From assembly GCA_900762805.1 (NCBI GenBank), contig CAAFHY010000203.1, positions 1 to 18,916 of the forward strand: DNA of 18,916 bases, read 5' to 3'. This document shows, piece by piece, positions 4,882 to 18,916 of the stretch. Positions within the stretch are counted from its first letter, which is position 1. Every line of letters starts with the position of its first letter. This stretch comes from Oscillospiraceae bacterium. Lineage in GTDB: Bacteria; Bacillota; Clostridia; Oscillospirales; Ruminococcaceae. Below the pieces are notes generated by a model. The model was not told where the DNA came from, did no database searches, and saw nothing but the letters and a program-made list of their open reading frames with translations. Both the position numbers and the translations under genes were made by a program.

Positions 4882-4897
4882 GCTTCCTGCTCTCCCC

Positions 4898-5243
4898 TGC
4901 CCCGCTCGGCGCAAAACCGTAACGTAAGCCTCTCTGCGTTCGCCGGGGGCAGGATAGAGCGGGCTGCCGGAGCGGGACCGCACAGGCGGCAGCGGCATTT
5001 TCCGCGTCGGCGCCCCGTCTCCCGCGCCTTCTGCCGGGGAAATGCCTCTCCGGCGCGAGGGTGTTTCCCTTGCCCCGCTCGGCGTAAAACCGTAACGTAA
5101 GCCTCTCTGCGTTCGCCGGGGGCAGGATAGAGCGGGCTGCCGGAGCGGGACCGCACAGGCGGCAGCGGCATTTTCCGCATCGGCGCCCCGTCTCCCGCGC
5201 CTTCAGCCGAGGAAATGCCTCTCCGGCGCGAGGGTGTTTTCCC
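4898..5243. repeat. Two-copy 173-bp tandem direct repeat
   Basis: Copy 1 is 4898-5070 and copy 2 is 5071-5243. They differ at only a handful of bases, for example GCGC/GCGT near 4911 and 5084 and CTGCCGGGG/CAGCCGAGG near 5031 and 5204. Each copy carries a small hairpin core (GCGGCATTTTCCGC) and CCGTAACGTAAGCC. No coding function is evident. Confidence 0.93.
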
Positions 5244-5316
5244 TGCCGCGTCCGGCGGCAAAAGCCATCCGCTTTGCTTTCGCCGCACGCCGCGTGTTTT
5301 CTTTGCTCCGCCGCCG

Positions 5317-5874
5317 TCAGCGGATGAACTGCCTGTTCTGCGTCATCGTGAGATAAGCGTAAATCTCCTCCGGGTCGGTGAACAGGTCCGACGGGTCAGC
5401 CGGCTGCCCGTCGGACCGGCCGGCCGCGGTCCCTTGCCCGCCTGCTTTGCCGCCGCTGCGCGCGGTGCGCCCGCCCGCTGCCGCCCGCTTCGCGGCGATG
5501 GCGTCCTTCAGCCTCCATTCCTCGACCTCCTCGCGCCAGCGGGTGCGCGTGCGCAGCTCCGTGTCGTCAAGGCTCTGTCTTTTGCGATCCCACGCCTTTT
5601 CCAGCTCGCGCAGAGCGCTGATATAGTCGCGGCGGATGGCCTGCCCGCGCTCCTCGCCGGATCCGCCCCACAGCCCCGCCGCCGCCAGCTGCTGCGGCAG
5701 GTCGCGGAGCTTTTCCATTGCCTCCACATAGAGCGAACGGGTGCCGCCGCGGAAGTCCTCCTCGGCCTCGGCCCGTTCACGCGCCTGTTTATCGAGGTCA
5801 GCCTGATACTTTGTATCGAGCTGCTGGCGCTGCTGGCGGCGCAGACGGGCCGAAAGTACGTCTGTATAGCTCAT
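5317..5874 (-). CDS. Charged coiled-coil phage protein of unknown function
   Basis: 185 aa, last gene of the operon. The N-terminal 70 residues are rich in Q, R, E and K and should form a long helix or coiled coil. A central segment LPQQLAAAGLWGGSGEE, followed by an R/E-rich helix, resembles a recurrent but uncharacterised motif of Clostridia phage structural clusters. The C-terminal third is a low-complexity Gly/Arg/Ala linker ending in an acidic DPEEIYAYL segment. Its ATG overlaps the endolysin stop by 4 nt (ATGA). Lying after the lysis genes is odd for a structural protein. It could be an internal or ejection protein, an assembly chaperone, or a lysis accessory factor. Phage origin is likely by context; the role is unknown. 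Confidence 0.75.
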   Translation of the reverse strand: MSYTDVLSARLRRQQRQQLDTKYQADLDKQARERAEAEEDFRGGTRSLYVEAMEKLRDLPQQLAAAGLWGGSGEERGQAIRRDYISALRELEKAWDRKRQSLDDTELRTRTRWREEVEEWRLKDAIAAKRAAAGGRTARSGGKAGGQGTAAGRSDGQPADPSDLFTDPEEIYAYLTMTQNRQFIR

Positions 5875-6659
5875 TTTGCCTCCTTTGCCGCGGCGGCCAG
5901 CGCCGCGATGCGGGACAGGATATCCTCCAGCTGCCGCTCACGGCTGGCGGGGGCATGAAGGCGGCTGTAGCCCTCGCAGACAGCCGCGTACAGCTCGCCG
6001 CCGATGCGGCACCAGCGGTAGCCATCCTGTTCAAAAACGCTGTCAACATCGTAAAAGCCGGTTGGGACATAGCCGAGGATCTCGCCCGCCAGCCCCGGCG
6101 CGGCCCGCAGGCGCAGCCGGTCGGCATAGACCTCCAGCTGCTGCCGGGCGGCGTCGCGCTCGACACGGCAGCGGGCGGCATCGTTCGCGGCCAGCCGCGC
6201 AATGGTGTAGGCGCTGTCGGTTTTGTCATAGACCGTCTGGAACGACTCGTCGAGACGGGTATAGAGCAGCGGATCGACCTGGCGGCCGCCGCGCAGCACC
6301 ACATAGTGGCAGTGATAGTCGTTTGCCGTGAAGCAGTTGCCGGAATTGCCCATGCGGCAAACGGCCTGTCCGCGGCTGACGCTGTCGCCCTTTTTCACGG
6401 TGAACGAGCCGCGCAGACAGTGCGCCAGCAGCGTTTCAAAGCCGTCTCCGTGGTCGATGCGGATATAGTTGCCCCAGCCCCTGGCGCGGTCCCAGCCGCA
6501 GCCGTCGGCAACGGCGGCGACCCTGCCGTCACCGGGCGACAGCAGCGGTGCCGTTGCGCCGCCCACCGTCGCGCCCCAGCCGAGGTCGATGGCCGGGTGA
6601 GCGGCGCTGTAGGGGCGGCTGATATAGACAAATGCCTTGGGAAAGGTCAGCACCGGCAT
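5871..6659 (-). CDS. Phage endolysin, M23 peptidase with C-terminal SH3-like domain
   Basis: 262 aa, predicted to cleave peptidoglycan cross-bridges or stem peptides at lysis. The M23/LytM domain (about residues 15-130) shows H21-x3-D25 (HPAID), H80 in LLAHC, and the HxH pair H116/H118 (HCHYV). H21, D25 and H118 would bind zinc, with H80 and H116 catalytic. A linker helix (about 150-180) leads to an SH3b-like wall-binding domain (about 183-228, LRLRAAPG... YRWCRIG). No signal peptide is visible, so export should depend on the holin upstream. I chose the ATG at 6659 because it overlaps the holin stop (ATGA) with a GGAGGGAGG tract upstream; the frame is open to 6788, but that stretch is the holin gene. 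A virion-borne wall hydrolase is an alternative role. Confidence 0.88.
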   Translation of the reverse strand: MPVLTFPKAFVYISRPYSAAHPAIDLGWGATVGGATAPLLSPGDGRVAAVADGCGWDRARGWGNYIRIDHGDGFETLLAHCLRGSFTVKKGDSVSRGQAVCRMGNSGNCFTANDYHCHYVVLRGGRQVDPLLYTRLDESFQTVYDKTDSAYTIARLAANDAARCRVERDAARQQLEVYADRLRLRAAPGLAGEILGYVPTGFYDVDSVFEQDGYRWCRIGGELYAAVCEGYSRLHAPASRERQLEDILSRIAALAAAAKEAK

Positions 6660-7060
6660 CAGCCCTCGCCTCCCTCCTCCGGCAGCTCGTGGGCGGCCGG
6701 CTCGGCCTGCGGTTGATAGGCGGGCAGGCCGGCGTCGGACAGCTGCCGGTCGGTCACGGCGAAGATATCCTTCAGATGGCCGGCGCATTTGCCGAAGTAA
6801 ACGGCGATAACGCCGAGCAGCAGCGCGTCGGGCATGACGGCGAAGGCGCCGAGATCGCAGGCGCCGTTCAGCTTGTCAAGAATGAGGGCAAGGGCAACAA
6901 AGCCCTCCGACACGATGGCTGCCTTGAGGATGCCCGTCAGCAGCAGCCGCCAGCTGAAGGCCTCGCGCAGCTTACCGACGCTTTGATAGGTGCCGAGCAG
7001 GATATTGGTGCCGGCCGCCAGCCCCAGACAGGGCAGATAACAGATGATTTTTTGCAGCAT
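6659..7060 (-). CDS. Phage holin
   Basis: 133-aa predicted inner-membrane protein that would form the lysis hole for endolysin release. Three hydrophobic segments are visible at about residues 5-23, 38-61 and 70-93, followed by a polar, acidic, proline-rich tail (about 105-133), as in many Firmicutes holins. AGGAG at 7065-7069 lies 4 nt before the ATG. The stop codon overlaps the endolysin ATG, the usual holin-endolysin arrangement. Function rests on topology and position, since holins are poorly conserved in sequence. Confidence 0.8.
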   Translation of the reverse strand: MLQKIICYLPCLGLAAGTNILLGTYQSVGKLREAFSWRLLLTGILKAAIVSEGFVALALILDKLNGACDLGAFAVMPDALLLGVIAVYFGKCAGHLKDIFAVTDRQLSDAGLPAYQPQAEPAAHELPEEGGEG

Positions 7061-7078
7061 AAGCTCTCCTCGTATACT
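7051..7078 (+). promoter_or_regulatory. Possible rightward (antisense) promoter in the lysis module
   Basis: TTTGCA (7051-7056), a 16-bp spacer and TATACT (7073-7078) resemble a sigma-A promoter read on the + strand, against the operon. TATACT is notable in such GC-rich DNA. It would face the rightward terminator at 7600-7624. The -35 box matches the consensus at only 4 of 6 positions. Confidence 0.3.
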
Positions 7079-7181
7079 AAGCTTTGCAGACGGTTTTAAG
7101 TGTGTCTGCTTCTTTCACTTGTTGTTCGGCGGGCCTTGGGAGGTCCGTGACGCGATAGCCGCCGGACAGCAGGAGCAATCT

Positions 7182-7225
7182 CCGATCGCTCTCTTTGAGC
7201 CGCAAGGCGCTTCAAAGAAGATCGG
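7182..7225. other. Imperfect long hairpin between lysis genes
   Basis: Arms CCGATC (7182-7187) and GATCGG (7220-7225) enclose TCTTTGA paired with TTCAAAGA, then GCC-GCAA-GGC. On the + strand the loop is a GNRA tetraloop (GCAA). No T-tract follows on either strand, so it is not a simple terminator. It sits in the 196-bp gap between the holin and the small membrane protein gene. Confidence 0.5.
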
Positions 7226-7256
7226 TTCCCCTGAGCCGGGCGTCAGCCGCGGGCCT

Positions 7257-7562
7257 TCAGGATAAAACCCTCCAGCTCCTGACCTCCTGATTGATCTTGT
7301 CGATAAAGGAATTGCCGCCCAGCGCCTTATAGGCGCTGTATTCGTAAATAAAGTTTTCCAGCTCGTGCTGCCGGATGGCCCGCGCGTCGCAGCGGCGGTA
7401 GTAGGTTGCCAGCATATCGGCGCGCAGCAGACATTTCTGCCCGTCGCGGATGCATTTGAAGCCGAGCAGCTTTTCACGCAGCGGCCGAATCAGCAGCAAC
7501 AGCAGCGTCAGCACAGCCGAAAGGCTGCCGGACACCGCCGCCAGCTTTTCAAGGATCGTCAA
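7257..7562 (-). CDS. Small phage membrane protein of the lysis module (holin-like)
   Basis: 101 aa with one strong hydrophobic segment (about residues 10-28, rich in leucine) and a conserved-looking cytoplasmic part. RADMLATYYRR is followed by FIYEYSAYKALGGNSFIDK, a signature I know from small Firmicutes phage proteins encoded next to holins. The start is most likely the TTG at 7562, since GGAGG (7570-7574) lies 7 nt upstream and no suitable ATG exists; the longer open frame reaching 7691 starts in proline/arginine-rich filler. It may be a second holin, an antiholin or a spanin-like accessory. The + strand across this gene may be transcribed too (promoter-like 7051-7078, terminator 7600-7624). 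Confidence 0.75.
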   Translation of the reverse strand: MTILEKLAAVSGSLSAVLTLLLLLIRPLREKLLGFKCIRDGQKCLLRADMLATYYRRCDARAIRQHELENFIYEYSAYKALGGNSFIDKINQEVRSWRVLS

Positions 7563-7599
7563 ATTTTCACCTCCCCGTTTCAATACATTTGTCCCTTCC

Positions 7600-7624
7600 T
7601 GCCCGCCGTCCGGCGGGCATTTTT
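7600..7624 (+). terminator. Rightward intrinsic terminator inside the leftward operon
   Basis: A perfect 8-bp GC-rich stem (TGCCCGCC 7600-7607, GGCGGGCA 7612-7619) with loop GTCC is followed by TTTTT (7620-7624) on the + strand. On the - strand the hairpin is followed by GGAAGGG, so it should stop rightward and not operon transcription. Confidence 0.75.
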
Positions 7625-7833
7625 CAAGATAGGCGCCCCCTTGTCCGGCTGTCCGCAGGGGCACGGCGGGCCGACAGGCGCAGGGCCGCATACACGCTTT
7701 GCCCCGGCGCGCCCCGTCAAGACCGGCGAGGGCAGGCGGAGCCGTACCGTGCGGCGGCAGAAAAAAGCCTTCCCTCCGTCCCCCGCCCCTGCCTTGCGGC
7801 GGCAGAGCCCGTGTTCTTCCAATCCCCGCCGCC

Positions 7834-8649
7834 CTATGACACCGGGCCGGTCGGCTCCCAGCTGTATACCGTCCTGCGGTGCTGCTCGACCGTCCCGCCC
7901 GTCAGCGTGTAGCCCCCGCCCGAAAGGGAAAGCGCCTGCCCCGCCGGGGCGCTTTCAATGTTCACCGAAAGGGTGCGCTGGGCCGTCAGGCTCGACCAGT
8001 CGATGCCCTTGACGATGACCGAGCCGCGCAGCAGCAGGTGGCTGTCACCGATGATCAGTGCCCGCGCGGTGCCGGTATAGCTTTTATAGCCGGCCGCCTT
8101 TTTGACGGCCGCTCCGCCATCGACCGAAAGCCAGACATCGCTTGCCTTGTTGATAAAGCCGTAGAGCGCGACGGTGTGCCAGACGCCGGGCGTGAGCGCC
8201 GCTTCCCACGTCGTGACCGTCGTCTTGCTGTTATAGGAGCTTTTCAGCACAACCCGTCCCTGTGCATCGGCCGAAACATCCCACCCGTAGCCGCTGCCGG
8301 GGCGGCTGCTGGCCAGCAGCGTCTGGGCGGCCGTCTCGATCATGCATTCGAGCGACACGCGCCATTCGACCGCGTCCGATTCCGAGTAGTTGTTGAAACA
8401 GTTGCCGGCCGGGCAGCTCAGCGGCCCGCGGACATAGCGGTAATCCTCCTGCTCGGCGGCAAGCAGCCGGCTGGAAAGGGCGGCGGCCGCGCTCGCCCGA
8501 TCGGTCACGATGATGCGCCGGATGTCGTGCATCACGCCGCCGGCATCACAGACGCGCACATTGAGGGCGCTGCCGTCGCTCGTGCCCGCGGCCGCCTGTC
8601 CGTGCAGTGTGCCGGCGGTATCGGCGGCATAGATATTGGCCAGTCTCAT
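7834..8649 (-). CDS. LamG/concanavalin-like phage adhesin (receptor-binding candidate)
   Basis: 271 aa. Residues about 95-230 read as a LamG-type beta-sandwich: VEWRVSLECMIE, then GYGWDVSADAQGRVVLK, GVWHTVALYGF, and DVWLSVDGG. Such domains bind sugars or surface proteins and occur in phage tail fibres and baseplates. The C-terminal 40 residues form a short Gly/Ser/Thr-rich strand region. The ATG at 8649 directly abuts the stop codon of the upstream fibre gene, with GGGGGAG just before it. Position between fibre and lysis genes supports a host-recognition role at the virion surface. I cannot name the ligand. After its stop, 271 bp lack a supported gene. Confidence 0.65.
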   Translation of the reverse strand: MRLANIYAADTAGTLHGQAAAGTSDGSALNVRVCDAGGVMHDIRRIIVTDRASAAAALSSRLLAAEQEDYRYVRGPLSCPAGNCFNNYSESDAVEWRVSLECMIETAAQTLLASSRPGSGYGWDVSADAQGRVVLKSSYNSKTTVTTWEAALTPGVWHTVALYGFINKASDVWLSVDGGAAVKKAAGYKSYTGTARALIIGDSHLLLRGSVIVKGIDWSSLTAQRTLSVNIESAPAGQALSLSGGGYTLTGGTVEQHRRTVYSWEPTGPVS

Positions 8650-9231
8650 TTAAGCTCCCCCGTAAACGAAATAAACAGTGCCGGCCGCCGGCGTTTCCGG
8701 CAGGCTCTCAACAACCGCCATTCCCAGCACGCCGAGATTACCGCGCGCCGCCGCGGCGGTGTCAGCTCCGGTGCCGCCGCCCGCTATGGGCAGCGTGCCG
8801 GTCAGCGCCGCGGCCTTGTCAACAACGCCGTCATTGTCGGCATCATAGACAGACCGGCACATATCGCCGGCACCGGCGGCGAGCATGGCATCGTCAACAT
8901 ATTTCTTGTTGACGGGGTCGTTGTCATTGCGCGGCGTAAAGGCGGTGCTGCCGTCGGTCAGCAGCACGGCGCCGGCGTCGGCCTTGGCGGCAAGGCCGGC
9001 GTTCAGGTCTGCCAGCGCCCCGGCCACTGTCGTCCCGCCGCAGCCGACGGCCTGTGCGCCGTCGGCCGCGGCCAGCTCGCTCACAAGGCCGTTGAAGGCC
9101 GGCACAACAACGTCGAGCGTCAGCTCGTCGAATCTCCGCTGCATGACGCCGCTGGCCAGCCCCGGCACATCGGGCAGGCCGCGCACGCCCTTATCGGCCA
9201 GCGCGGCCGTAGTGATGGTGCTCAGTGCCAT
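8650..9231 (-). CDS. Short phage tail fibre / appendage protein
   Basis: 193 aa. The N-terminal 55 residues (LADKGVRGLPDVPGL, then MQRRFDELTLDVVVPAFN) resemble a recurrent N-terminal part of tail appendage proteins in Clostridia phages. The middle carries DNDPVNKKYVDD, and the C-terminal part LPIAGGGTGADTAAAARGNLGV is a typical tail-fibre motif. A DADNDGVVD segment could bind calcium. It starts at 9231 with AGGAGG (9241-9246) 9 nt upstream and overlaps the 601-aa gene by 10 nt. It probably joins the tail hub to the LamG-like adhesin encoded next. It is much shorter than most fibres, so the pair may act as a split fibre. Confidence 0.75.
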   Translation of the reverse strand: MALSTITTAALADKGVRGLPDVPGLASGVMQRRFDELTLDVVVPAFNGLVSELAAADGAQAVGCGGTTVAGALADLNAGLAAKADAGAVLLTDGSTAFTPRNDNDPVNKKYVDDAMLAAGAGDMCRSVYDADNDGVVDKAAALTGTLPIAGGGTGADTAAAARGNLGVLGMAVVESLPETPAAGTVYFVYGGA

Positions 9232-11027
9232 TGCTTGATCCCTCCTGTTTCTCTGAATTCAAAGCCGAAGCCCAGCAGGGCGAACGGCTCATTTCCGCCG
9301 CTGTTTTCAAACCGCAGCGCGCCGCAGGGCACCTTTTTGATGCGCATCCGGCCGCCCACCACCTGCGGGTCGCTGTCGCAGCAGAAGGTGAACGCCGAAA
9401 AGCGCAGCGTGCTGAAGCAGAGATAGCGGCAGACGCTGATGTCCTTTTTGAGAAGATACCAAGCGCCGCGGCGCTTGGCCGATATGCTGACCGATGTGGT
9501 CGGCTGCGGCATGACGCGCAGATAATAGCGCAGCAGATCCTTGTTTTTGAAAAAGGAGCTGCCGGAAAATTCGGGCGTCGTCCAGCGGCAGGCGATGGGT
9601 GCGCCGCAGTCGTTGTAGCTGGCCGGGTCGGACGGGTCGGTATAAAATTCACACAGACGGCCGTCCGCCGTGCCGAAGCGCAGCGTATCACCGGCTGTCA
9701 GCACACGCGCACCGATATGGTCGAAGTGATAGCACTCGTACTGGTGCGCCGAATAGGGCTGGTCGCGGCGGTAATCCTTGGCCAGCAGGTCGAGCAGATA
9801 CAGCCTGCCGCCGGCCGCGATGATATAGAAGTCCTTATACACCGCCGCAGCCGCCTCCGACAGCTCCTCCCGCTGCAATGCGGCATTGATATAATAGCTG
9901 CGGTTCCGGGTGACGCGGTCGCCCGTCACATCCTCCGACGTGACGGCATAGACCCCGCCCGCTGTCAGGAACAGCGGCTCGCCGGCCGGCGCGAAGGCAT
10001 GGGGCGAAACGGCACCCGGCGCCAGCAGCAGGTTCTCGATGGGGAACTCGGCCCGACCGTCGATCAGCCGGCCGCTTCTGATAACGATGGTGCGCCCGTC
10101 GTCGTCGCGGCTCTTGAAGGCCAGCAGGCGGCTGCCCAGCGTCAGATAGCCGGCCACGGCGCAGCTGTCCTGCCCCAGCCGGCCATAGCCGGTGTCGGGA
10201 AAGTAATCGGGCTGTCCCAGCTCGGAATGGAAATCGAGATTGGGGCAGTCGGGATTGCCTGACAGAAACAGGCGGTCCTGACTGCCGTCAACGCCGAACA
10301 CGGTGCCCACCGTGCAGCGGTCGATGCGGTCGGCATAGCCGGCCACGGTTTTTTCGGCCTCTATTTCGACATTGTCGGCCCCCTCGCAGTCGCTCTCAGC
10401 CGGCGCCGTGTCAAAGGTGACCGTGCCGTCGGCCGCGTTGACCGTGAAGCCGCCGGCAAGCTCGGCCCACACCTCGCCCGACCGGATGCGGACGACAGCA
10501 CCCGCCGAGGTCAGCTCCGACAGTGACATCTGATAGACCCTGCTGACGCCGTCGGCCAGAAAGCGCTCGCGGAAGCGGCCGGTCAGCAGATTGAGGGGCT
10601 GGTAGTCGGTGCCGCCGCCATCGGGCGCACGGGAGACAGTCAGCAATGGGCAGTAGGCCCCCTGTGCCGCCGGCCTGACGCTGCTGCCGTCATAGGCCAG
10701 CAGCCGTTTGCCGTCCGCGATGAACAGCCGGCCCTCCAGCTGAAAGGCCTGCGAGCGGCAGTCGGCCAGACCGGCCGCCAGCTGCGCCGCGCCGTCATAG
10801 AGCGCCGTGCCGGCATGGATCAGCTCCTTGGTGCCGGCCCGTCCGTAGAACCGATGGATGCCGTTGACGCGGGCGGGATACTGGCGCACCAGATGATAAC
10901 CCATGCGCTTGCGCACGCGCCCCGGCACGTCGCGCACCATATTGGGCGCGTCGGGCGAGCGGTCAAGCGACACGCCGGAGGGCGCCGAGGTCAGATCGAC
11001 CCCCTTGAAGCACTCGACGACGGCCAT
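9222..11027 (-). CDS. Phage tail hub / stabilization-like protein (podovirus type)
   Basis: 601 aa, the largest protein of the cluster. It opens with FKGVDLTSAPSGVSLDRSPDAPNM and then RVRKRMGY, the start I associate with beta-rich 'stabilization' or tail-tubular-B-like proteins of short-tailed phages. Repeating beta-strand pieces (RLFIADGKRLLAYDGS, DRLFLSGNPDCPNLDF, RLYLLDLLAKDY) suggest a propeller-like fold. The C-terminal 100 residues are another beta-rich domain. I chose the ATG at 11027 by similarity. A TTG at 11069, which overlaps the upstream stop and has GGAG 6 nt before it, would add 14 residues and cannot be excluded. It would sit below the portal and connector as the main tail component. 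No tape measure or tube gene accompanies it. Confidence 0.7.
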   Translation of the reverse strand: MAVVECFKGVDLTSAPSGVSLDRSPDAPNMVRDVPGRVRKRMGYHLVRQYPARVNGIHRFYGRAGTKELIHAGTALYDGAAQLAAGLADCRSQAFQLEGRLFIADGKRLLAYDGSSVRPAAQGAYCPLLTVSRAPDGGGTDYQPLNLLTGRFRERFLADGVSRVYQMSLSELTSAGAVVRIRSGEVWAELAGGFTVNAADGTVTFDTAPAESDCEGADNVEIEAEKTVAGYADRIDRCTVGTVFGVDGSQDRLFLSGNPDCPNLDFHSELGQPDYFPDTGYGRLGQDSCAVAGYLTLGSRLLAFKSRDDDGRTIVIRSGRLIDGRAEFPIENLLLAPGAVSPHAFAPAGEPLFLTAGGVYAVTSEDVTGDRVTRNRSYYINAALQREELSEAAAAVYKDFYIIAAGGRLYLLDLLAKDYRRDQPYSAHQYECYHFDHIGARVLTAGDTLRFGTADGRLCEFYTDPSDPASYNDCGAPIACRWTTPEFSGSSFFKNKDLLRYYLRVMPQPTTSVSISAKRRGAWYLLKKDISVCRYLCFSTLRFSAFTFCCDSDPQVVGGRMRIKKVPCGALRFENSGGNEPFALLGFGFEFRETGGIKQWH

Positions 11028-11065
11028 TTTGTGTGCATGACCGGCCGGCGCGGCCGCCACGCGCC

Positions 11066-11446
11066 TCAAAAGCCGCTCCGATAGACGTCGATCACGCCGC
11101 CGGCCACAGCGCGGCAGCAGTCGGCGATGCCGGCGACATAGAGATTGTGGTAATAGACGGCGCGCTGAAGGTCATCGTCGGCCACCATGCGCGAGGCGAC
11201 GCCGTACAGTCCGGCCTTAAAAATAACATAAGGCTCCAGACCGACCTCATCCTCCAGATGGGCGATGACCGGCGGCTCGGCCAGCGGCTGACGGCCGCGC
11301 GCCATGCGGACGGTGTTGTTGGCCTCGAACAGCTCGGCTGTCACGATATTGATATCGGTCACGGCCGACCGGCTGTAATCGCCGGCGTCAAGCGGCGGAA
11401 CGGCCAGCACCGCCAGAGCATTTTCATAAAGCTTTTGTCCTGTCAT
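11066..11446 (-). CDS. Phage head-tail connector (head completion-like) protein
   Basis: 126 aa, mostly helical. It has the pattern VIAHLEDEVGLEPYVIFKAGLYGVASRMVADDDLQ, cut here at the helix boundary, followed by YYHNLYVAGI. This matches small adaptor proteins encoded right after the capsid gene in Clostridia phages (LYG-x-A-S ... DDD ... Y-x3-Y). Such proteins close the portal channel and bind the tail. GGGAGG lies 6 nt before the ATG at 11446. A 32-nt palindrome separates it from the capsid gene. The assignment is by order and helical pattern, not by a catalytic motif. Confidence 0.65.
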   Translation of the reverse strand: MTGQKLYENALAVLAVPPLDAGDYSRSAVTDINIVTAELFEANNTVRMARGRQPLAEPPVIAHLEDEVGLEPYVIFKAGLYGVASRMVADDDLQRAVYYHNLYVAGIADCCRAVAGGVIDVYRSGF

Positions 11447-11461
11447 ACATGTCCTCCCTGC

Positions 11462-11493
11462 GCCGCTTTCCCGCCGGCCGGCGGGAAAGCGGC
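11462..11493. other. 32-nt perfect palindrome after the capsid gene
   Basis: GCCGCTTTCCCGCC (11462-11475) and its exact reverse complement (11480-11493) flank GGCC, giving a 14-bp stem in RNA. It lies between the capsid stop (11507) and the connector ribosome binding site. No T-tract follows on the - strand. It could stabilise or pause the capsid mRNA, or be a processing site. Confidence 0.7.
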
Positions 11494-11506
11494 TGTATTT
11501 CTGGTG

Positions 11507-12559
11507 TTACAGCGTCTTCTGCGTGACGCCGGAGGGATAGCAGCCGTCCTTGTAAGCGTAAGCCCGCACGACGGTGTTGGCGGCCGTGACGTCGCTTGCC
11601 GTGCCGACGCGGGCGGTGGAGCTGTAGCGCGGATCGCTGCCGTCAGTCGTGAAGCGGATGCTGGCGCCCGCCGTGGCGCAGGTGAGAGCGCCCGCGTCGG
11701 AAATGGCCGGCGCGGCCGCGACGGTGCCGCCGCCGGTGCCGGTATCGACCTCGACATAGACGCCGCTGCACTTGGCGCCGAAAACGAACAGATCGTAATA
11801 CTGGCGGCCCTCCAGCAGGTTGCCGGAAATGCCCGGCGGGTCGATGTGAAAGCGCGTCTCGCTGATCTTGACGGGCGCGGCGGCCGCGTACTTGTAGGCG
11901 ATGATAAAGTTGACATGGGCGGGCCAGCGGCCGCCCGGCACCTTGACGACCGGCATATTGTCATACTCGCCGACCTGTCCCCTGGCAAGGGCACGGTGCG
12001 CCAGCGCCTCGCAGCCGAGAAATTCGTTCGAAAGCCTCAGCAGCTTATAGGCCTTGGCCGATATAAAAAGCGTGCGCCCCGTCTGCGGCACCTCGGCGTC
12101 GTCCATGGCCTCGGTGCCCGCCGAAATGCGCTCGCAGATGCTGGCTTTGCTGAGCGCCGCGGCGTTGCCGACGATCGTGCCTGCCTTTTCGGCCAGTCTG
12201 GCAAAGCAATAGGTGTCGTATTCGGGGATGGCGCGCTCGTTGATCTGAAGCCCCAGCATACTGACGGCGCTCTTGACGCCGCCCTGATCCAGGTTGTTGC
12301 CCTTATCGATGGTGAGCGAAAAGCCCTTGTCCTGCGTCAGCGTCAGCTCCTGCACGGTGTCCTGCAGCTCGGTGGGCGTTCCGTAGCGGTTGGCGCCGCT
12401 TCGGGTATAGTCGGTCATGGCGACGGTGGTCGGCGTGATGACCTTGACGGTCTTTACACCCGAAAAGGTGTAGTCGGGCGAGAAGCGGCCGGCGATGAGG
12501 CTCTCGCGGTGAAAGCTTTCCTCGACCTTCTTCTGAAATCCTGTGAATGTGTTGACCAT
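11507..12559 (-). CDS. Major capsid protein with C-terminal Ig-like domain
   Basis: 350 aa. Residues 1-275 look like an HK97-fold coat protein of podovirus type: an N-terminal helix, the KVITPTTVAMTDYTR strand region, LTIDKGNNLDQ, a helical middle, and TLFISAKAYKLL leading into beta-rich YYDLFVFGAKCSGVYVEV. Residues about 280-350 form a separate domain. Its sequence TCATAGASIRFTTDGSDP matches the chitobiase-C / Fn3-associated Ig-like signature (TPGATIRYTTDGSDP type). The domain should project from the capsid surface. A GGGAGG tract lies 5 nt before the ATG at 12559. Location after portal and scaffold candidate supports the call. Identification is by context and composition, so a non-capsid structural role is a small possibility. 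Confidence 0.82.
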   Translation of the reverse strand: MVNTFTGFQKKVEESFHRESLIAGRFSPDYTFSGVKTVKVITPTTVAMTDYTRSGANRYGTPTELQDTVQELTLTQDKGFSLTIDKGNNLDQGGVKSAVSMLGLQINERAIPEYDTYCFARLAEKAGTIVGNAAALSKASICERISAGTEAMDDAEVPQTGRTLFISAKAYKLLRLSNEFLGCEALAHRALARGQVGEYDNMPVVKVPGGRWPAHVNFIIAYKYAAAAPVKISETRFHIDPPGISGNLLEGRQYYDLFVFGAKCSGVYVEVDTGTGGGTVAAAPAISDAGALTCATAGASIRFTTDGSDPRYSSTARVGTASDVTAANTVVRAYAYKDGCYPSGVTQKTL

Positions 12560-12574
12560 GGCTCCTCCCTTTTC

Positions 12575-12877
12575 TCAGCGGCGGAATACGGCATCGTAAA
12601 TGGCCTCAAGCTCGGCCATCTCGCTGTCGGCGGCGCCGGTGCGGGCGCTGCCCATGCTGCTGCCGCGGTTGGCATAGTTGGTTTCAAGCGCGTCGATGCG
12701 CTTTTCCAGCTCGGTCAGGCGCGCAAGGCTCTGCTCAGGCCCCCTGCTTTCCTTCTCGCGCTGATAGGCGAGAAGGCCCAGCCTTGCGGCGCAGAGAAGC
12801 TGCTCCCGCGTCAGCTCCAGCTGTTTTCCGCCGATCTCAAGCGCAAAGCGCTCGGCCGGCATCTGATTGTTTTCCAT
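12575..12877 (-). CDS. Small helical phage protein, candidate scaffold
   Basis: 100 aa. It begins with a short beta-like segment (FALEIGGKQLELTREQ), followed by a helix (LLCAARLGLLAYQREKES). A predicted coiled coil (LARLTELEKRIDALETN, about 50-66), a Ser/Gly linker and an acidic C-terminal helix (EMAELEAIYDAVF) follow. It is encoded directly before the capsid gene, the standard place for a scaffolding protein. Scaffolds are short, helical and poorly conserved; phi29 gp7 is of similar length. I chose the ATG at 12877 because AGGAGG (12884-12889) lies 6 nt upstream; a further in-frame start at 12910 lacks one. The scaffold role is inferred from position and predicted structure only. Confidence 0.6.
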   Translation of the reverse strand: MENNQMPAERFALEIGGKQLELTREQLLCAARLGLLAYQREKESRGPEQSLARLTELEKRIDALETNYANRGSSMGSARTGAADSEMAELEAIYDAVFRR

Positions 12878-12938
12878 AGATATCCTCCTGTTGTAAAATT
12901 CTATCGTCATGCCGTTTCCGGCTGCCGATCGGCTTCTT

Positions 12939-12953
12939 CCTCCCGTCGGGAGG
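12939..12953. other. Short hairpin upstream of the scaffold candidate gene
   Basis: CCTCCC (12939-12944), loop GTC, and GGGAGG (12948-12953) form a perfect 6-bp stem in the 173-bp gap between the zinc-ribbon gene and the scaffold candidate. No T-tract follows on either strand. The rest of this gap is GC-rich with no supported gene. Confidence 0.4.
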
Positions 12954-13050
12954 CTGTCAAAGGCACCCGCGGGCCGGGCGGCGGCTCAGATGCGCGGCGG
13001 GCGAAACCCGCGGGACATTCCCGCCGGACCGCTCCGGCGGCGCCGGTTCC

Positions 13051-13230
13051 TCACGTCCGCGGCGCTGCGGCCTGCCGGCCATCGCTCTGCCCGTCCGGCC
13101 GGCTGACCGTCACCGGTTTGCCGCGCTGCGGGCACTGCGGGTTGCAGCAGCTGTGCTGCTCTATGCGGGCGCCGTCACGCCGGGTCACGGCCCGTATCCG
13201 CATCTCCAGCCGGCATACGCTGCATTTCAT
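13051..13230 (-). CDS. 59-aa zinc-ribbon phage protein
   Basis: Small protein of 59 residues. A CxxC pair (C3, C6) and a second cluster CCNPQCPQRGK (C28, C29, C33) would fold as a zinc ribbon, as in small Firmicutes phage proteins of unknown role. A perfect AGGAGG (13237-13242) lies 6 nt before the ATG at 13230. The first 56 nt overlap the end of the portal gene in another frame. The tail after residue 40 is polar and low-complexity. A nucleic-acid or protein-binding role in head assembly is possible. The gene is real by ribosome binding site, conserved Cys spacing and operon fit; its function is unknown. Confidence 0.75.
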   Translation of the reverse strand: MKCSVCRLEMRIRAVTRRDGARIEQHSCCNPQCPQRGKPVTVSRPDGQSDGRQAAAPRT

Positions 13231-14713
13231 CCTGCTCCTCCTTTCTCCGGCGCAGGCTTTCGAGCAGCCGGCTCTTGCCGGGGATGAGATGGTCGGGCAC
13301 GCTCTCCAGATAGGCGATGGCGTCGGTCACAATGCCCTTGGCGAACATATTGTCGAGCGTCTGCACCTGCATCAGCTCCGACCAGTAGGGCGACACGCCG
13401 ACATCGACCTGCACCGACATGGCGTCAATGCCGAGCGACGAAAAATCGACCGTCTGCCGGCGGCCGTCCAGCACCACCTCACGGCGGCCGTAGCTGGCGC
13501 GGATAAGGTCGATGATGACGCGCACCGAATCCTCGACGAACTGGAAGTAGGCCAGCTTCTGAAGCTCCAGCGGCGCGGCCGCCGCCTGCTGGACGGCAAT
13601 GATGGCGCTGGCGTTGTCGGGCCGGATATTGCCGAGCGCCGCGTCGGAGGCCCCCATGAATTCCTTGGTGTACTGGATGGTGCGGTCAACCAGCGTCAGC
13701 AGCTGGCCGGACATATCGCCGGCGCGGAAGCTGGTCGCCACCGCCTCGGACGGGTTGCCGACAACGCCGATGGCCTCGCCCACGCGGTTGCTCCACTCGC
13801 CGATCTTCTGCCGGTCGTAAAACACCTTGGGAAAGGCCATCATGTGCTGGTGGCGGATGGCCATGGCCCACAGCTTGTTGACGGCGATCTGGTTCGGGAT
13901 AAGCCCCGTGACCGCGGCGCGGCCGTGATAGCTGCTGCGCACCCGCTCATAGCTCATATAGGCCACGGGATAAAGGGTGCAGCGGCTGTCGATCTCCTCG
14001 CGCAGCATGGCGGTACGGGTCGATTCCGAGAAAAAGACCCGTCCGTCCCGCTTGTACATCCGCAGCAGCACGGTGGCGCTGCCGCCCTCCTCCCCGCCGC
14101 CCGGCGCGCCGGCCTCGCCGCTGTCGGGGCAGAAAAGCGCCGGCGGCACACCGTAGAGCGCCGCCCGCCGCCGCAGCGACGCCACGCTCTCACGCTTGAC
14201 GATCAGCAGGTAGGGCTGCCGCTGCACCTCCGCCTCATAGGGGTCGCCGAACAGGATGCGGGTGTTTTCCACCACGTCAAGCCCGATCTCGCCCTGCGCC
14301 GCGCGGCTGCCGATGGCATCGGGGTCGAAATACCAGAAAAAGCAGCCGTCGCCGTCAACGACACAGTTGCGCAGTATCTCGCGGCCGCGCGCCCGCATTT
14401 TGGTGCGCTCGATGACGCGCAGCACCTCACGCTCCAAAGCGGCGCAGACGGCGCTGTTTTGCTGTGCCGCGTCGAAGGGCGTCAGCTTGACGCCGATATC
14501 GTCGCTCACCAGCATGGCGACAAGATAGCTGCAGACGCGCTTGAGAAAGTTGAGCACCGGCTTGTCGAGATCGGGGGCCTGCAGCCCGTTCCACTGGTCG
14601 CCGATATAGAATTCCTCGTTCCGGCGCACCGTCTCATAGAGCCCGATGGCGCTGTTGTAGCGCACGCCGCGCTCATATTCGCGCCATATTCTTTCGGCCC
14701 GGTCAGTCGTCAA
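13175..14713 (-). CDS. Phage portal protein
   Basis: 512 aa, dodecameric vertex ring through which DNA enters and leaves the capsid. It has the N-terminal pattern YNSAIGLYETVRRNEEFYIGDQW (given here as a helix pair; RNEEFYIGDQW at residues 31-41) typical of podovirus-type portals of Firmicutes. DKPVLNFLKR, a wing region, and the helical crown segment IIAVQQAAAAPLELQK also fit. The C-terminal 30 residues are charged and hydrophilic. The start is the TTG at 14713, with GAGGGGG about 10 nt upstream; no ATG in frame gives a better N-terminus. It overlaps the small membrane protein gene by 11 nt and the zinc-ribbon gene by 56 nt. It follows the terminase genes as expected. Confidence 0.9.
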   Translation of the reverse strand: MTTDRAERIWREYERGVRYNSAIGLYETVRRNEEFYIGDQWNGLQAPDLDKPVLNFLKRVCSYLVAMLVSDDIGVKLTPFDAAQQNSAVCAALEREVLRVIERTKMRARGREILRNCVVDGDGCFFWYFDPDAIGSRAAQGEIGLDVVENTRILFGDPYEAEVQRQPYLLIVKRESVASLRRRAALYGVPPALFCPDSGEAGAPGGGEEGGSATVLLRMYKRDGRVFFSESTRTAMLREEIDSRCTLYPVAYMSYERVRSSYHGRAAVTGLIPNQIAVNKLWAMAIRHQHMMAFPKVFYDRQKIGEWSNRVGEAIGVVGNPSEAVATSFRAGDMSGQLLTLVDRTIQYTKEFMGASDAALGNIRPDNASAIIAVQQAAAAPLELQKLAYFQFVEDSVRVIIDLIRASYGRREVVLDGRRQTVDFSSLGIDAMSVQVDVGVSPYWSELMQVQTLDNMFAKGIVTDAIAYLESVPDHLIPGKSRLLESLRRRKEEQDEMQRMPAGDADTGRDPA

Positions 14714-14888
14714 GGCGCATCTGCCCCCTCTCGCTGCCGCTGTAATTCAAAAAATTGAGAAGCTGCCTTTCCGCCGGGTCGGGACGGGCGGGCGGCGGCT
14801 GACGGCGCAGCCGCCGCCAGTACAGCATACAGCAGAATACCGCCGATCCGCCAAGGGCGAAGCCGGCAAGAGCAAACAGGATCTCCAT
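14703..14888 (-). CDS. Small phage membrane protein between terminase and portal
   Basis: 61 aa with one hydrophobic helix (about residues 2-22, MEILFALAGFALGG onward), then a basic stretch (WRRLRRQ), and a polar tail containing QLLNFLNY. I chose the ATG at 14888 because the AAAGGAG (14898-14904) is 9 nt upstream; the frame's first ATG at 14897 touches that site with no spacing. The stop overlaps the portal start by 11 nt. Similar one-helix proteins sit at this place in some Firmicutes phages, with no known function. It could anchor packaging or assembly at the membrane. Confidence 0.65.
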   Translation of the reverse strand: MEILFALAGFALGGSAVFCCMLYWRRLRRQPPPARPDPAERQLLNFLNYSGSERGQMRLDD

Positions 14889-14903
14889 ATCATGCATCTC
14901 CTT

Positions 14904-16196
14904 TCAGATACCGTAGGACAGCAGGCTGTCCAGCTCGCTGTCATGTGTGATGAGCGGCTCTCCGCGGCGGGAGGCCGCAAAATAGCGCAGCGCGTCGGGC
15001 GCGTGGGTGACCTCGTGCGGGCGGCCGGCTGCGTCGCCGGGGTCATGGCAGTCGCACCGCAGGGCAAGCAGACTGCGGATGGTATTGGGGCAGTCCTCGG
15101 TGAAGCAGAGTGCCGGCCGGCTGCCGTCGCCGGGCGGCTTGAGCAGCTCCTTGAGCGCCAGCCAGCCCGAAGCGCGTGCCGCCGGCGCTCTGGTCAGCGT
15201 CACGCCGCAGCGCTGGAATATCTCGGCGGCGCTGACGCCCGTTTCCTGCCGCCGGTTCCACAGATCGGGCGGCGCAAAAACGGCCGCCGGCGGCCGGTCG
15301 AGCGCCGAAAGCAGCAGGCGGGCGGCATCTGAAATGATAAGGCTGCTCTGATACACCTCCCGGTACTGCACCGCGCGGCTGCCGTCAACGGCGAACAGAC
15401 AGGCCGCGAACATATCAAGGCCGTAATCGATGCTGACATACCGCGTCCAGCCGGCCGGCGGGCATCCGCTCGGCAGGACGTGCGTCTCGCGCCGGAATTC
15501 GGGGAAAAAGCGGCCGTCCTCCAGCTCCCATGCGCCGTCGAGCAGCGCGCGGCGCTCGTTTTCCGGCAGATTGAGCAGTCTTGTGGCGTAGCCGGGGTCC
15601 TTTTTCATCAGAAAGCTGTTGTCGGTCACGCGCGCCGGGATAAAGCGGCGGGTGCCGGTGGGCGTGCGGTGCGTCTGCATGGGCGCACCGAGGTCGATGA
15701 ACCGCTCTCTGACAAAGCTGTGCCCCGGTCCGCCGGGGTTGGTCGTGCTTTTGACCTGCTTGGGGTAACCGTTGCTGCCGCGCAGCCGCGACAGCAGATA
15801 GAGGTACATATAGCCCGTGAAATGCGTCAGCTCATCAAAGCGGATCACGTCGTATTCCGCCGACTGATAGCGGTGGACGTCCTCCTCCGAATCGCAGTAG
15901 CCGAATTCCAGCGCCGAGCCGTTGGCAAACAGGCCGGTGTGGCTTGAGGCGGTGTAGCTGTACAGGCTTTTCGGATAGAGCTGCAGCGCCACGCGCACCA
16001 GCGTTTTATCGAGTTCGGGCAGCGTACGCCGCAGGATAAGCTGCCGGCTGCCGCTGTAACGCAGGGCATAGAGCAGCGCGTCGAGCATCTGCCCCATGCT
16101 CTTGCCCCCGCCGGCCGCGCCGCCGAACAGCACCTCGTCCTCGGCGGCCTCGATAAAGCTGCGCTGCTTGGGGGTGACGCACAGCTCAAGCTCCAT
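14904..16196 (-). CDS. terL: Phage terminase large subunit
   Basis: 430-aa packaging motor: an ATPase that drives DNA into the prohead and a nuclease that cuts it. The ATPase part shows a Walker A FGGAAGGGKS (residues 24-33, K32), a Walker B VIRFDE (D121, E122) and the coupling motif STTNPGG (150-156). The RNase H-like nuclease has acidic residues D257 (SIDYG), D311 (PPD) and D401 (HAPDALRYF). All expected motifs are present at normal spacing, so the enzyme looks functional. The ATG at 16196 overlaps the small terminase gene by 11 nt. Its packaging strategy (cos or headful) cannot be read from the sequence. Confidence 0.95.
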   Translation of the reverse strand: MELELCVTPKQRSFIEAAEDEVLFGGAAGGGKSMGQMLDALLYALRYSGSRQLILRRTLPELDKTLVRVALQLYPKSLYSYTASSHTGLFANGSALEFGYCDSEEDVHRYQSAEYDVIRFDELTHFTGYMYLYLLSRLRGSNGYPKQVKSTTNPGGPGHSFVRERFIDLGAPMQTHRTPTGTRRFIPARVTDNSFLMKKDPGYATRLLNLPENERRALLDGAWELEDGRFFPEFRRETHVLPSGCPPAGWTRYVSIDYGLDMFAACLFAVDGSRAVQYREVYQSSLIISDAARLLLSALDRPPAAVFAPPDLWNRRQETGVSAAEIFQRCGVTLTRAPAARASGWLALKELLKPPGDGSRPALCFTEDCPNTIRSLLALRCDCHDPGDAAGRPHEVTHAPDALRYFAASRRGEPLITHDSELDSLLSYGI

Positions 16197-16458
16197 CGTC
16201 TATCACCCGCACCGTCACCCTGACTTCGGGCGGGGCGGACGTCTCCTCGCTCATCAGCTCGCCGATATATTTGGCGGCCGCCGTATCGCCGCGCAGCGCC
16301 TTGCCGATCTGCGCCATGGCGATGGCCTCGCTCGTCTTGAAGCCGGGCGGCAGCTCACGGAGCTGCTCGTCCAGCCTGCCGGCGGTCTCCGGGTCGATGG
16401 GCGCTTCAAGCAGGCGGACAAACGCCTCCTTAAAGGCCCGCGGCTTTTTCGGCGCCAT
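16186..16458 (-). CDS. Phage terminase small subunit candidate
   Basis: 90 aa, predicted DNA-recognition subunit that selects the packaging start. A basic N-terminus (MAPKKPRAFKEAF) is followed by helices including FKTSEAIAMAQIGKALRGD and AAKYIGELMSEE, a pattern seen in small terminase or terminase-associated proteins of Clostridia phages. GGGAGG lies 6 nt before the ATG at 16458; the frame extends to 16533 but that part overlaps the upstream gene and lacks a start site. It overlaps terL by 11 nt and the Cys-rich gene by 29 nt. The call rests on position and helical composition. Confidence 0.75.
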   Translation of the reverse strand: MAPKKPRAFKEAFVRLLEAPIDPETAGRLDEQLRELPPGFKTSEAIAMAQIGKALRGDTAAAKYIGELMSEETSAPPEVRVTVRVIDDGA

Positions 16459-16621
16459 TGTCCGCCTCCCTGATGTCCGCCCGCACGCAGGCCGGCAGAA
16501 CGCAGAACAGCACGCCGCAGCGCCGGTATTCATTGTAGACGCAGCGCCGGCACCGCTGTTTTTGCAGCGCTTCGGGGTCGGAGCGGCGCCCGACCCGTTT
16601 TTTGAGGTTTCTTCGTGCCAT
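16430..16621 (-). CDS. 63-aa cysteine-rich phage protein, first gene of the operon
   Basis: Very basic N-terminus (RRNLKKRVGRRSD) and five cysteines: C24-x2-C27-x7-C35-x4-C40-x4-C45. The CRRCVYN start and Cys spacing suggest a small zinc-binding or Fe-S fold, as in tiny proteins placed just before terminases in Firmicutes phages. GGGAG lies 8 nt before the ATG at 16621. It overlaps the small terminase gene by 29 nt. It is the first gene after the candidate promoter and leader terminator, so it may be a DNA-binding or antitermination-type regulator, though nothing here proves that. Confidence 0.7.
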   Translation of the reverse strand: MARRNLKKRVGRRSDPEALQKQRCRRCVYNEYRRCGVLFCVLPACVRADIREADNGAEKAAGL

Positions 16622-16651
16622 CAATAATCTCCCTTTCATTTTTCTGCACAC

Positions 16652-16682
16652 AAAAAGGCCCCGGAGCCTCAGCTCCAAAGCC
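16652..16682 (-). terminator. Leader terminator just upstream of the phage-type operon
   Basis: Read leftward, an 11-bp stem (16682-16672 with 16667-16657, three G-U pairs, loop TGAG) is followed by TTTTTG. On the + strand the three wobbles become C-A mismatches and no T-tract follows, so it works leftward only. It lies between the TATCAT box (16698-16703) and the first gene (16621). It may attenuate the operon or simply end transcripts from the CDF gene. Confidence 0.85.
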
Positions 16683-16697
16683 CTTTGCGACACTGTT

Positions 16698-16729
16698 ATG
16701 ATAGCACGGCGGGAACGTACATAACGTAC
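16698..16729 (-). promoter_or_regulatory. Candidate late promoter with tandem operator-like repeats
   Basis: On the - strand two direct repeats GTACGTT (16729-16723 and 16720-16714, 9-bp period) lie 10 nt before a -10-like TATCAT (16703-16698). The -35 position falls inside the upstream repeat and matches no TTGACA, which suits an activator-dependent promoter. An A/T-rich tract follows upstream (about 16739-16757). Confidence 0.5.
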
Positions 16730-17182
16730 CGTTTGCGGTTTTTTGAAAAAAATTTTGACCGGCGGCAGCCCGCCGGCCAGGGATACAGAAGCCCCTGCGA
16801 ACGCCCCGCGTCGGGGCAGCCTTCAGCGGGCAGCAGCGCGATTTTTCCCCTGCCGCAGGGAAGCGCGCCGGCGCGCGGAAGCCGCCCCTGTTCACTTTAT
16901 GAGCGCGGCATAAGGGCGGCAGGGCGCTGGAAATGAACACCGCCGGAAACGGCGCGGCAGCCTGACGGTCAGCGGGAAACAAACGGCATCGCCGCAGCCG
17001 GAGCGGGGGCAGCCCCACAGACCGCCTGATGGAGCTTTTCGGCCGGAGCTTCACCGAAGCCGCGAAAGACCCTTACGGACAAAAAGAGCGGCAGCAGACC
17101 GGAGCGGGCCGCCGCGCCTCCGTTCAGACCGCCGGCCGGGAACGGAAGCGGCAAGCAGCCGGAGCGGCCATACGGCCGGCGC

Positions 17183-18511: not shown

Positions 18512-18916
18512 CCCAAGCCAGAATGGAAGCTCCCAGCTTTTTATAGTCAAGCCTGTCTGTTCAACGCAGGGCGGCGCCTATCAAGCCTTTTCCGCCCATG
18601 CTCCCGCGCGATGACCGGCCAAGCGGCCCATGGAGCAGCGGGAACAGCCCCCGCAAAAAGCGGCAGCGGCTATTTCCGCCGCGCGCTTTCTTCATGCTTT
18701 TGTTTTTCCCAAGTCAGAACAGGCGCTTCCGGCTTTTATATGCAAGGCCGCGCGCTCGGCGCGGGGCAGCGCCTATCAAGCCTTTTTCGCCCATGCTCCG
18801 TGCGATAACGGCCAAGCGGCCCATGGAGCAGCGGGATCAGCCCCCGCAAAAAGCGGCAGCGGCTATTTCCGCCGCGCGCTTTCTTCATGCTTTTGTCTTT
18901 CCCAAGTCAGAACAGG
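18512..18916. repeat. Tandem direct repeat of about 194 bp, running off the window
   Basis: Copy 1 is 18512-18707 and copy 2 is 18708-18900. Copy 3 starts at 18901 and is cut by the window end. Each starts with CCCAAG(C/T)CAGAA. The first 60 nt of copy 1 are diverged, but from 18574 (GCGCCTATCAAGCC) onward the copies are nearly identical. Hairpin-prone parts include CCGC-AAAAA-GCGG and GCGGC-TATTTCC-GCCGC. Confidence 0.92.

Follow-up and report, generated by a model that had tools for sequence, protein, structure and literature searches.

A podovirus-type particle operon from a probable gut member of the Oscillospiraceae as a candidate gene transfer agent

The DNA analysed here, called the window below, is positions 1 to 18,916 of contig CAAFHY010000203.1 of an Oscillospiraceae bacterium (assembly GCA_900762805.1) that probably comes from the gut. 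Between positions 5317 and 16621 its translated frames include an unbroken series of 16 minus-strand genes, about 11.3 kb in all, for the packaging, head, short tail, fibre and lysis proteins of a podovirus-like particle (Table 1); this locus is probably a particle operon of podovirus type that has been domesticated and now serves as a gene transfer agent (GTA). No internal stop was found on translation of the 16 particle genes and five flanking genes, and adjacent cluster genes mostly touch or overlap, leaving four gaps of 61-197 bp. The flanking genes are host-like by Pfam -- MurD, a GNAT-like protein, methionine gamma-lyase and a Zn-dependent phospholipase C (PLC) on one side, a CDF transporter on the other -- and the codon usage of the cluster is close to theirs (r = 0.945 for relative synonymous codon usage, with similar GC content at third codon positions; the window is ~65% GC). 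A preliminary description, made from the letters of the window, had claimed 16 intact, tightly packed minus-strand genes between ordinary host genes, with packaging, capsid and lysis functions in about 11.3 kb. The coordinates hold, and PHROG and Pfam matches bear out the TerL, portal, capsid, structural, fibre and peptidase functions; TerS is assigned by position, a weak match and alignment, and the holin, scaffold and ejection proteins by position, hydrophobicity or motif.

The same description had spoken of a short tail. In a profile search the 9222-11069 protein matched tail tubular protein B (5.3e-4), and its AlphaFold2 model (predicted local distance difference test score 83.5), compared with the PDB by Foldseek, gave phage tail or portal-tail chains as every one of matches 1-29 (E 1e-19 to 2e-11), P22 gp10 and the T7 nozzle gp12 among them; given this nozzle fold, the short tail is confirmed. 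Relatives of the capsid protein are named as N4-gp56 family in protein listings, and alignment of the window TerS with the short TerS proteins of relatives shows an invariant GD..A. Small Cys-rich genes likewise follow the portal gene at loci L101, L103, L096 and L114. The open reading frame (ORF) of the M23 peptidase extends to 6788, the ATG at 6659 being the more likely start, and the 5317-5874 protein is 17-28% identical to the products of genes in L086, L078, L080, L118, L103 and L106. A PADLOC scan of three window proteins, including the 63-aa Cys-rich protein, gave no matches.

Table 1. Features of the particle cluster and its borders, in the order of transcription (window positions; aa, amino acids)
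Position	Strand	Feature	Evidence
16622..16779	-	Intergenic region with terminator-like hairpin (16779-16756) 3' of the CDF gene	Pattern scan, sequence
16430..16621	-	First cluster gene; Cys-rich small protein of 63 aa	ORF translation
16186..16458	-	Small terminase TerS, 90 aa	Position; weak phrog_2412, 2.6e-5 (longer ORF); alignment with short TerS of relatives
14904..16196	-	Large terminase TerL, 430 aa	phrog_979, 4.8e-47; Terminase_6N, 4.1e-10; alignment
14703..14897	-	Small membrane-anchored-looking protein, kept beside portal in relatives	48 loci by iterated profile; no family match (PHROG, Pfam)
13175..14713	-	Portal protein, 512 aa	phrog_156, 3.1e-21; P22_portal; alignment; tree
13051..13230	-	Small Cys-rich protein, 59 aa, overlapping portal 3' end	ORF; no Pfam match
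12575..12910	-	Scaffold-position protein, 111 aa	Position before capsid, as groups R0/R10 in relatives; no family match (PHROG, Pfam)
11507..12559	-	Major capsid protein, C-terminal CHB_HEX/Fn3-associated domain	phrog_422, 2.7e-44; Pfam; alignment
11462..11493	-	Possible attenuator: palindrome with 14-bp stem, lying between the capsid gene and the adaptor gene	Scan (reported + strand)
11066..11446	-	Head-tail adaptor-like protein, 126 aa	Position 3' of capsid kept in relatives; weak phrog only
9222..11069	-	Podoviral tail nozzle (P22 gp10 / T7 gp12 fold), 615 aa	phrog_3287, 9.7e-25 (virion structural protein); model (see text)
8650..9231	-	Tail-fibre-like protein, 193 aa	phrog_11393, 4.8e-6; 69 loci by iterated profile
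7834..8649	-	Laminin-G-like protein, putatively a second fibre or receptor-binding protein	LamG match under Pfam cut-off
7257..7691	-	Membrane-anchored protein, possibly lysis-associated (position)	phrog_4105, 2.6e-9, family of unknown function
6659..7060	-	Holin-like hydrophobic protein, 133 aa	Assigned from hydrophobicity and position; no PHROG or Pfam hit
5871..6659	-	Endolysin-like M23 peptidase with SH3-like domain	Peptidase_M23, 2.9e-15; SH3_3 under cut-off
5317..5874	-	Ejection/internal-virion-like protein, PQQLAAAGL.GG motif	Weak T7_gp14 match under cut-off
4881-4850	-	Terminator-like hairpin, 14-bp stem and T run, 3' of cluster	Pattern scan

The two terminator-like hairpins bound the cluster, which therefore looks like a single transcription unit; the same pattern scan found 40 such sites in the region where shuffled sequence gave 11.7. 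It detected no promoter-like site in the intergenic region between the CDF gene and the cluster, where by position the cluster promoter would lie. Just past the 3' end of the cluster there is a tandem repeat (4893-5263; 173-bp unit, 2.1 copies, 93-97% alike), and another, with a 193-bp unit, lies beside the CDF gene and runs off the end of the window (18565-18916). An antisense open frame of 1241 codons on the plus strand (11033-14758), over the capsid and portal genes, probably results from codon use at high GC.

The features of a temperate prophage were looked for throughout the window. No tyrosine integrase or serine recombinase profile matches in its 18.9 kb, and neither replication, lysogeny nor other early genes appear among the PHROG and Pfam matches of its proteins. 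The best direct repeat from flank to flank is 11 bp, a length equalled in 12 of 40 shuffles, so that no att-like repeat was found, and no helix-turn-helix (HTH) regulator was seen 5' of TerS in the window. Within the window the earlier negative result for integrase, repressor, replication gene and att-like repeat stands. Other loci do have regulators 5' of TerS -- S24-type in L103 (4154-4753) and L114 (3500-4150), and an HTH with IrrE-type protease in L080 (3274-4053). Across 103 loci, integrase or recombinase profiles matched in ten (L121, L131, L151, L153 and L156; L115, L128, L134, L136 and L147). On the capsid contigs of 13 genomes PF00589 was found in three, ~6 kb from the capsid in G012 (a prophage), at least 85 kb away in G013 and 261 kb away in G002, with none in the other ten.

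A Pfam scan of the window TerS at E <= 0.1 gave no HTH and only a weak C-terminal match to DUF5681, and this holds for all five TerS proteins of the GTA-like type that were scanned (the window, L271, L258, L103 and L266). The five prophage-type TerS proteins (L017, L037, L134, L136 and L131, the last tested as a relative of L121) all match an HTH or terminase-small-subunit family, L017 and L136 below the cut-offs. This pattern would fit a packaging start that has lost its sequence specificity, which has been suggested for FpGTA, the GTA of Faecalibacterium prausnitzii. A short TerS in itself was considered as a GTA diagnostic and rejected, phage-like loci carrying similar ones.

The search for relatives of the capsid returned 1020 proteins at E <= 1e-3 among 7998 candidates scored, and that for TerL 5445 among 7995; the best 80 of 167 relative loci were kept from the genome-contig scan, and 30 genomes from these, picked for capsid identity and for long or compact context, served for the placement of capsid, portal and TerL. 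Locus layouts were drawn, with a simple gene caller, only for capsid-bearing loci > 7 kb. The 80 loci kept are mostly titled Oscillospiraceae, Ruminococcaceae or Clostridia, with a few others such as Paenibacillus and Faecalicoccus, and stand-alone clusters usually have the order TerS, TerL, small gene, portal, scaffold, capsid, adaptor, nozzle and fibre. The same gene set occurs in three viral-collection contigs of 7-10 kb (L001, L002 and L158, MT836592.1), with a short TerS in L001 and L002; these two are possibly fragments of GTAs that were catalogued as viruses.

Two genera, genus A (that of genome G005) and genus B (that of G059), were sampled by species. The capsid profile matches 16 of 16 genomes in genus A and five of five in genus B, with a full-length capsid of this lineage in 14 of the former and a full-length capsid in all five of the latter. 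There is one match per genome, except in G782, where a prophage-like copy accompanies that of the lineage. In G925 the copy (L367) is decayed, its portal, capsid and nozzle genes all truncated, and its neighbours are those of L103-L105. G924 has only a prophage-type copy; decay of this copy, suggested by two stops in the match, was rejected, since its frame of 275 aa is like that of the 276-aa prophage-type capsid of L113 and the match overruns its end.

In many relatives the particle genes are distributed among host genes. Of the 30 genomes, 12 have capsid, portal and TerL together on a single contig, 15 have them on more than one (among these G791, where no TerL was found, and G146, where no portal was found), and three in which no strong TerL was found have capsid and portal together. 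Because contig breaks can look like splitting, a case was counted as split only if host genes stood on the sides where they were needed; treating every multi-contig genome as dispersed was rejected, as breaks can explain G786 and G790. In G005, G780, G781, G782 and G785 TerS-TerL stands alone between host genes, the loci of this kind being L257, L258, L259, L260 and L261, adjoining tRNA-synthetase genes of W/Y and E/Q type in L257, a serine dehydratase gene in L258 (on a 203-kb contig) and degV in L259. In G059 of genus B, scaffold, capsid and adaptor lie a few genes from secA (L108) and TerS, TerL, nozzle and portal two genes from ychF (L266). The capsid locus of G004 comes directly after metabolic genes, with TerS, TerL and portal on another contig near glycosyltransferase and sensor kinase genes. 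Elsewhere, rsfS and leuS separate TerL from capsid in L110 (named by clustering with L093), tyrS separates portal from capsid in L096, and four genes lie between TerL and capsid in L099. Neither tyrosine integrase nor serine recombinase profiles matched in the split or host-flanked loci that were read. In G093 TerL occupies two overlapping frames (374 + 80 aa; L272, 5531-6855), and a second, full TerL is found on another contig by lysis-like genes (L265).

Several of these sites are common to different species. The pair rsfS-leuS lies 5' of the capsid locus in L093, L094, L097 and L110, and L081 and L108 have the secA neighbourhood in common. Genes R46-R48 precede L103, L104 and L105 and also lie within ~3.5 kb of TerS in L258, in the other orientation, the middle gene being 75-76% identical between L103-L105 and L258. 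A kinase, a regulator and a 391-aa gene surround TerS-TerL in L260, L262 and L275, and ychF with an M23 peptidase gene is found 5' of TerS in L264, L266 and L272 (an M23-like gene also in L274). Genes for PLC-family, MFS-like and ABC-like proteins (the last two named by inspection) follow the portal in L097, L098 and L269, and a PLC gene is also present in L091, where the contig ends. A candidate common valS/leuS flank, group R14, was discarded, since it merges two synthetases. Particle genes were repeatedly seen near aminoacyl-tRNA synthetase genes (L096, 7712-8932; L110, L093, L094, L097, L078 and L257), a frequency not set against chance.

As a check of domestication, the preliminary description had proposed that the CDF and PLC flanks be sought in relatives, and here the support is weak. 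A distant PLC-family protein adjoins the portal in four relatives, but at 24-25% identity between the window PLC and those of L097 and L098 it was rejected as strong synteny and is a hint only. For the CDF side, the records P0005 (capsid 77% identical) and P0243 (CDF 65%) have the same assembly figures (2 contigs, longest 10,176), a hint that in a sister species the cluster has stayed beside the CDF gene; a chance match is possible, P0100 and P0247 sharing the length 32,268 with different contig counts.

Divergence of the particle genes follows that of the host. In Mantel tests against rpoB the correlation was 0.66 for capsid (n = 26), 0.77 for portal (n = 22) and 0.64 for TerL (n = 21), and none of 2000 permutations reached these values; four of the 30 genomes had been dropped as having no rpoB match, and five were left out of each of the portal and TerL comparisons for want of a usable full match. 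Comparison of L093, L094 and L097 with one another gives differences of 7-8% in rpoB and of 23-24% in capsid (the L110 genome gave no rpoB match). The dN/dS ratio (nonsynonymous to synonymous substitution) of particle genes was 0.03-0.43 over seven pairs of relatives, wherever dS was finite and differences were present, and neighbouring host genes are similar. The preliminary description had named a TerL tree in agreement with that of the host, and dN/dS well below 1, as signs of domestication. In the pair L078/L079 the fibre is 67% identical and the capsid 99%, indicating a fast or exchanged receptor-binding region. The portal tree has 78 rows (119 portals minus 42 IMG/VR rows without a capsid match, plus the window) and places the window as sister to G004, with a support of 98 in the Shimodaira-Hasegawa-like approximate likelihood ratio test and 60% identity over 369 columns. 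Both fall within a 23-row set (support 99) together with genus-A rows, L080, L095 and L096; this set includes no IMG/VR row and no locus with an integrase match.

Taken together, the related genomes favour domestication, through the genus-wide capsid, the host flanks common to species, the split particle genes, the lack of an integrase match in those loci, the low dN/dS and the correlation with rpoB, and on the same grounds the earlier reading of the locus as a GTA candidate is supported, as a candidate. A single transcript, running from ~16.7 to 4.85 kb, would yield a small capsid, together with its portal, its adaptor and a short nozzle, and TerS and TerL would fill this capsid with DNA. Because TerS is short and has no detectable HTH, packaging would be expected to proceed without a phage-specific start site and so to take up host DNA. 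The M23 endolysin and the holin-like protein would release the particles from a sacrificed subpopulation, and the fibres and the ejection-like protein would deliver the DNA through the nozzle. If the capacity were ~9 kb, as in FpGTA, the 11.3-kb cluster would not fit its own particle. That the operon is expressed, packages DNA at random and delivers it, and that it is fixed in the species to which the window belongs, are inferences.

A number of observations weigh on the other side. Short TerS proteins of the DUF5681 type also occur in the phage-like loci L008 and L109. Purifying selection and some correlation with the host are expected of active phages too; phages of limited host range could give part of the rpoB correlation, and the Mantel test had no control for them. 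The 23-row portal set holds L107, L109 and L113, which have phage-like early genes, so that phages are close kin; domestication may have occurred in this set more than once, or these phages may descend from it. Loss does occur within genus A, as G924 and G925 show, and the distribution across the order is patchy (91 of 394 genomes at E <= 1e-3, many of them weak matches; in one family, 47 of 396 at E <= 1e-20). The TerL profile has no match in G009 and G791 and weak ones in G001 and G011, and the portal has none in G146. Most relatives are metagenome-assembled genomes, in which a broken contig can pass for a split cluster and errors of binning occur. Also, the genomes compared lie outside the species and genus of the window (MurD identity at most 49% among 391 genomes of the class, best capsid identity 65% among 396 of the family), and from them we infer fixation in the window's species.

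One rival idea is that the window shows the late half of a podoviral prophage of the usual kind, its integrase and early genes lying outside the window or recently lost. Prophages with homologous capsid and portal do exist, such as Bittarella L121, with a PF00589 integrase ~6 kb from the capsid, and L134 and L136, with serine recombinases; there are the phage-like relatives L107, L109 and L113, and only the single host-like CDF gene stands between the cluster and the window end at 18916. Against this, the cluster has host-type genes next to it at either end, its codon usage matches that of its flanks, and the nearest portal relative, G004, is a split locus with no integrase in the parts read. 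We judge such a prophage half to be unlikely. A domesticated killing particle that lyses competitors, with or without packaged DNA, in place of gene transfer has a precedent in PBSX of Bacillus subtilis, and the authors of the FpGTA report leave that possibility open for their own particle (PMC12946183, here and below cited from part of its text); the fast evolution of fibre genes, as in L078/L079, would suit it. TerS, TerL and portal have all been kept, with low dN/dS where tested, however, while a killer free of DNA would not need them, and the nozzle and ejection-like genes suit DNA delivery, so that a role of this kind seems improbable. A decaying, functionless prophage remnant is very improbable indeed: decay is seen in kin, in G925, but the window has 16 genes without a stop, and its kin have low dN/dS and full-length capsids in 14 of 16 and five of five genomes.

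There is also a broader proposal, to which we give even chances: that several Oscillospirales genera besides Faecalibacterium share a podovirus-derived GTA as a core trait of long standing, whose genes have been scattered step by step, often to places by aminoacyl-tRNA synthetase and other translation genes, with the window representing the undispersed form. Were this so, the family would be a wider, genus-wide one, with the packaging of DNA for exchange built into several gut lineages, it would supply candidate genes for GTA-like packaging in gut taxa that have no known operon, and it would hold within one protein family a graded series, beginning with prophages, passing through one-piece GTAs and ending with dispersed ones. 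Because prophages, one-piece clusters and dispersed clusters stand side by side in this family, the change from virus to host organ could be studied directly.

Among known systems, the podoviral prophages L121, L134 and L136 and the IMG/VR loci L017, L018 and L054 resemble the window in having a homologous portal and capsid and, in most, TerL, but differ from it in carrying an integrase or serine recombinase within the locus. The particles of the classified GTAs -- RcGTA, BaGTA and VSH-1/BhGTA -- are not known to be podoviral. PBSX is comparable as a chromosomal particle without self-transfer, though its tail type differs from that of the window. It is reported not to inject its packaged DNA and to act as a tailocin (PMC12946183). 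The classified GTAs form three independently exapted groups and are alike in having virus-derived particle genes that are inherited vertically in the host lineage (PMC9662315, also cited from part of its text). As in that description of GTAs, the particle genes of the window are Caudoviricete-derived and intact. In its relatives, vertical inheritance is supported by the rpoB correlation, the genus-wide capsid and the shared flanks.

GTAs outside the Alphaproteobacteria are few, and the first reported podovirus-type one from the gut, FpGTA, dates only from January 2026 (PMC12946183). According to the same source its operon was not found in Gemmiger or Subdoligranulum, and GTA-like packaging occurs in Onthomonas and the Christensenellaceae, the genes being unnamed there; a limited search of open PMC full text showed, among the papers listed, no other on GTA genes of this order. 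The window, known from its genes alone, can be likened to FpGTA by gene content and published description only: both belong to gut Clostridia, are podovirus-like and have the series TerS, TerL, portal, scaffold and capsid with holin, endolysin and fibre genes, and in both TerS has no obvious DNA-binding domain, which for the window means the absence of a match (PMC12946183). The FpGTA operon with this series is ~10 kb long, FpGTA has no replication genes, and the particle capacity is 9 kb. In one strain FpGTA is divided between two operons ~125 kb apart (PMC12946183), whereas in the window the fibre and lysis genes, which also lie apart in some relatives, are joined with those for head and tail in a single 11.3-kb locus.

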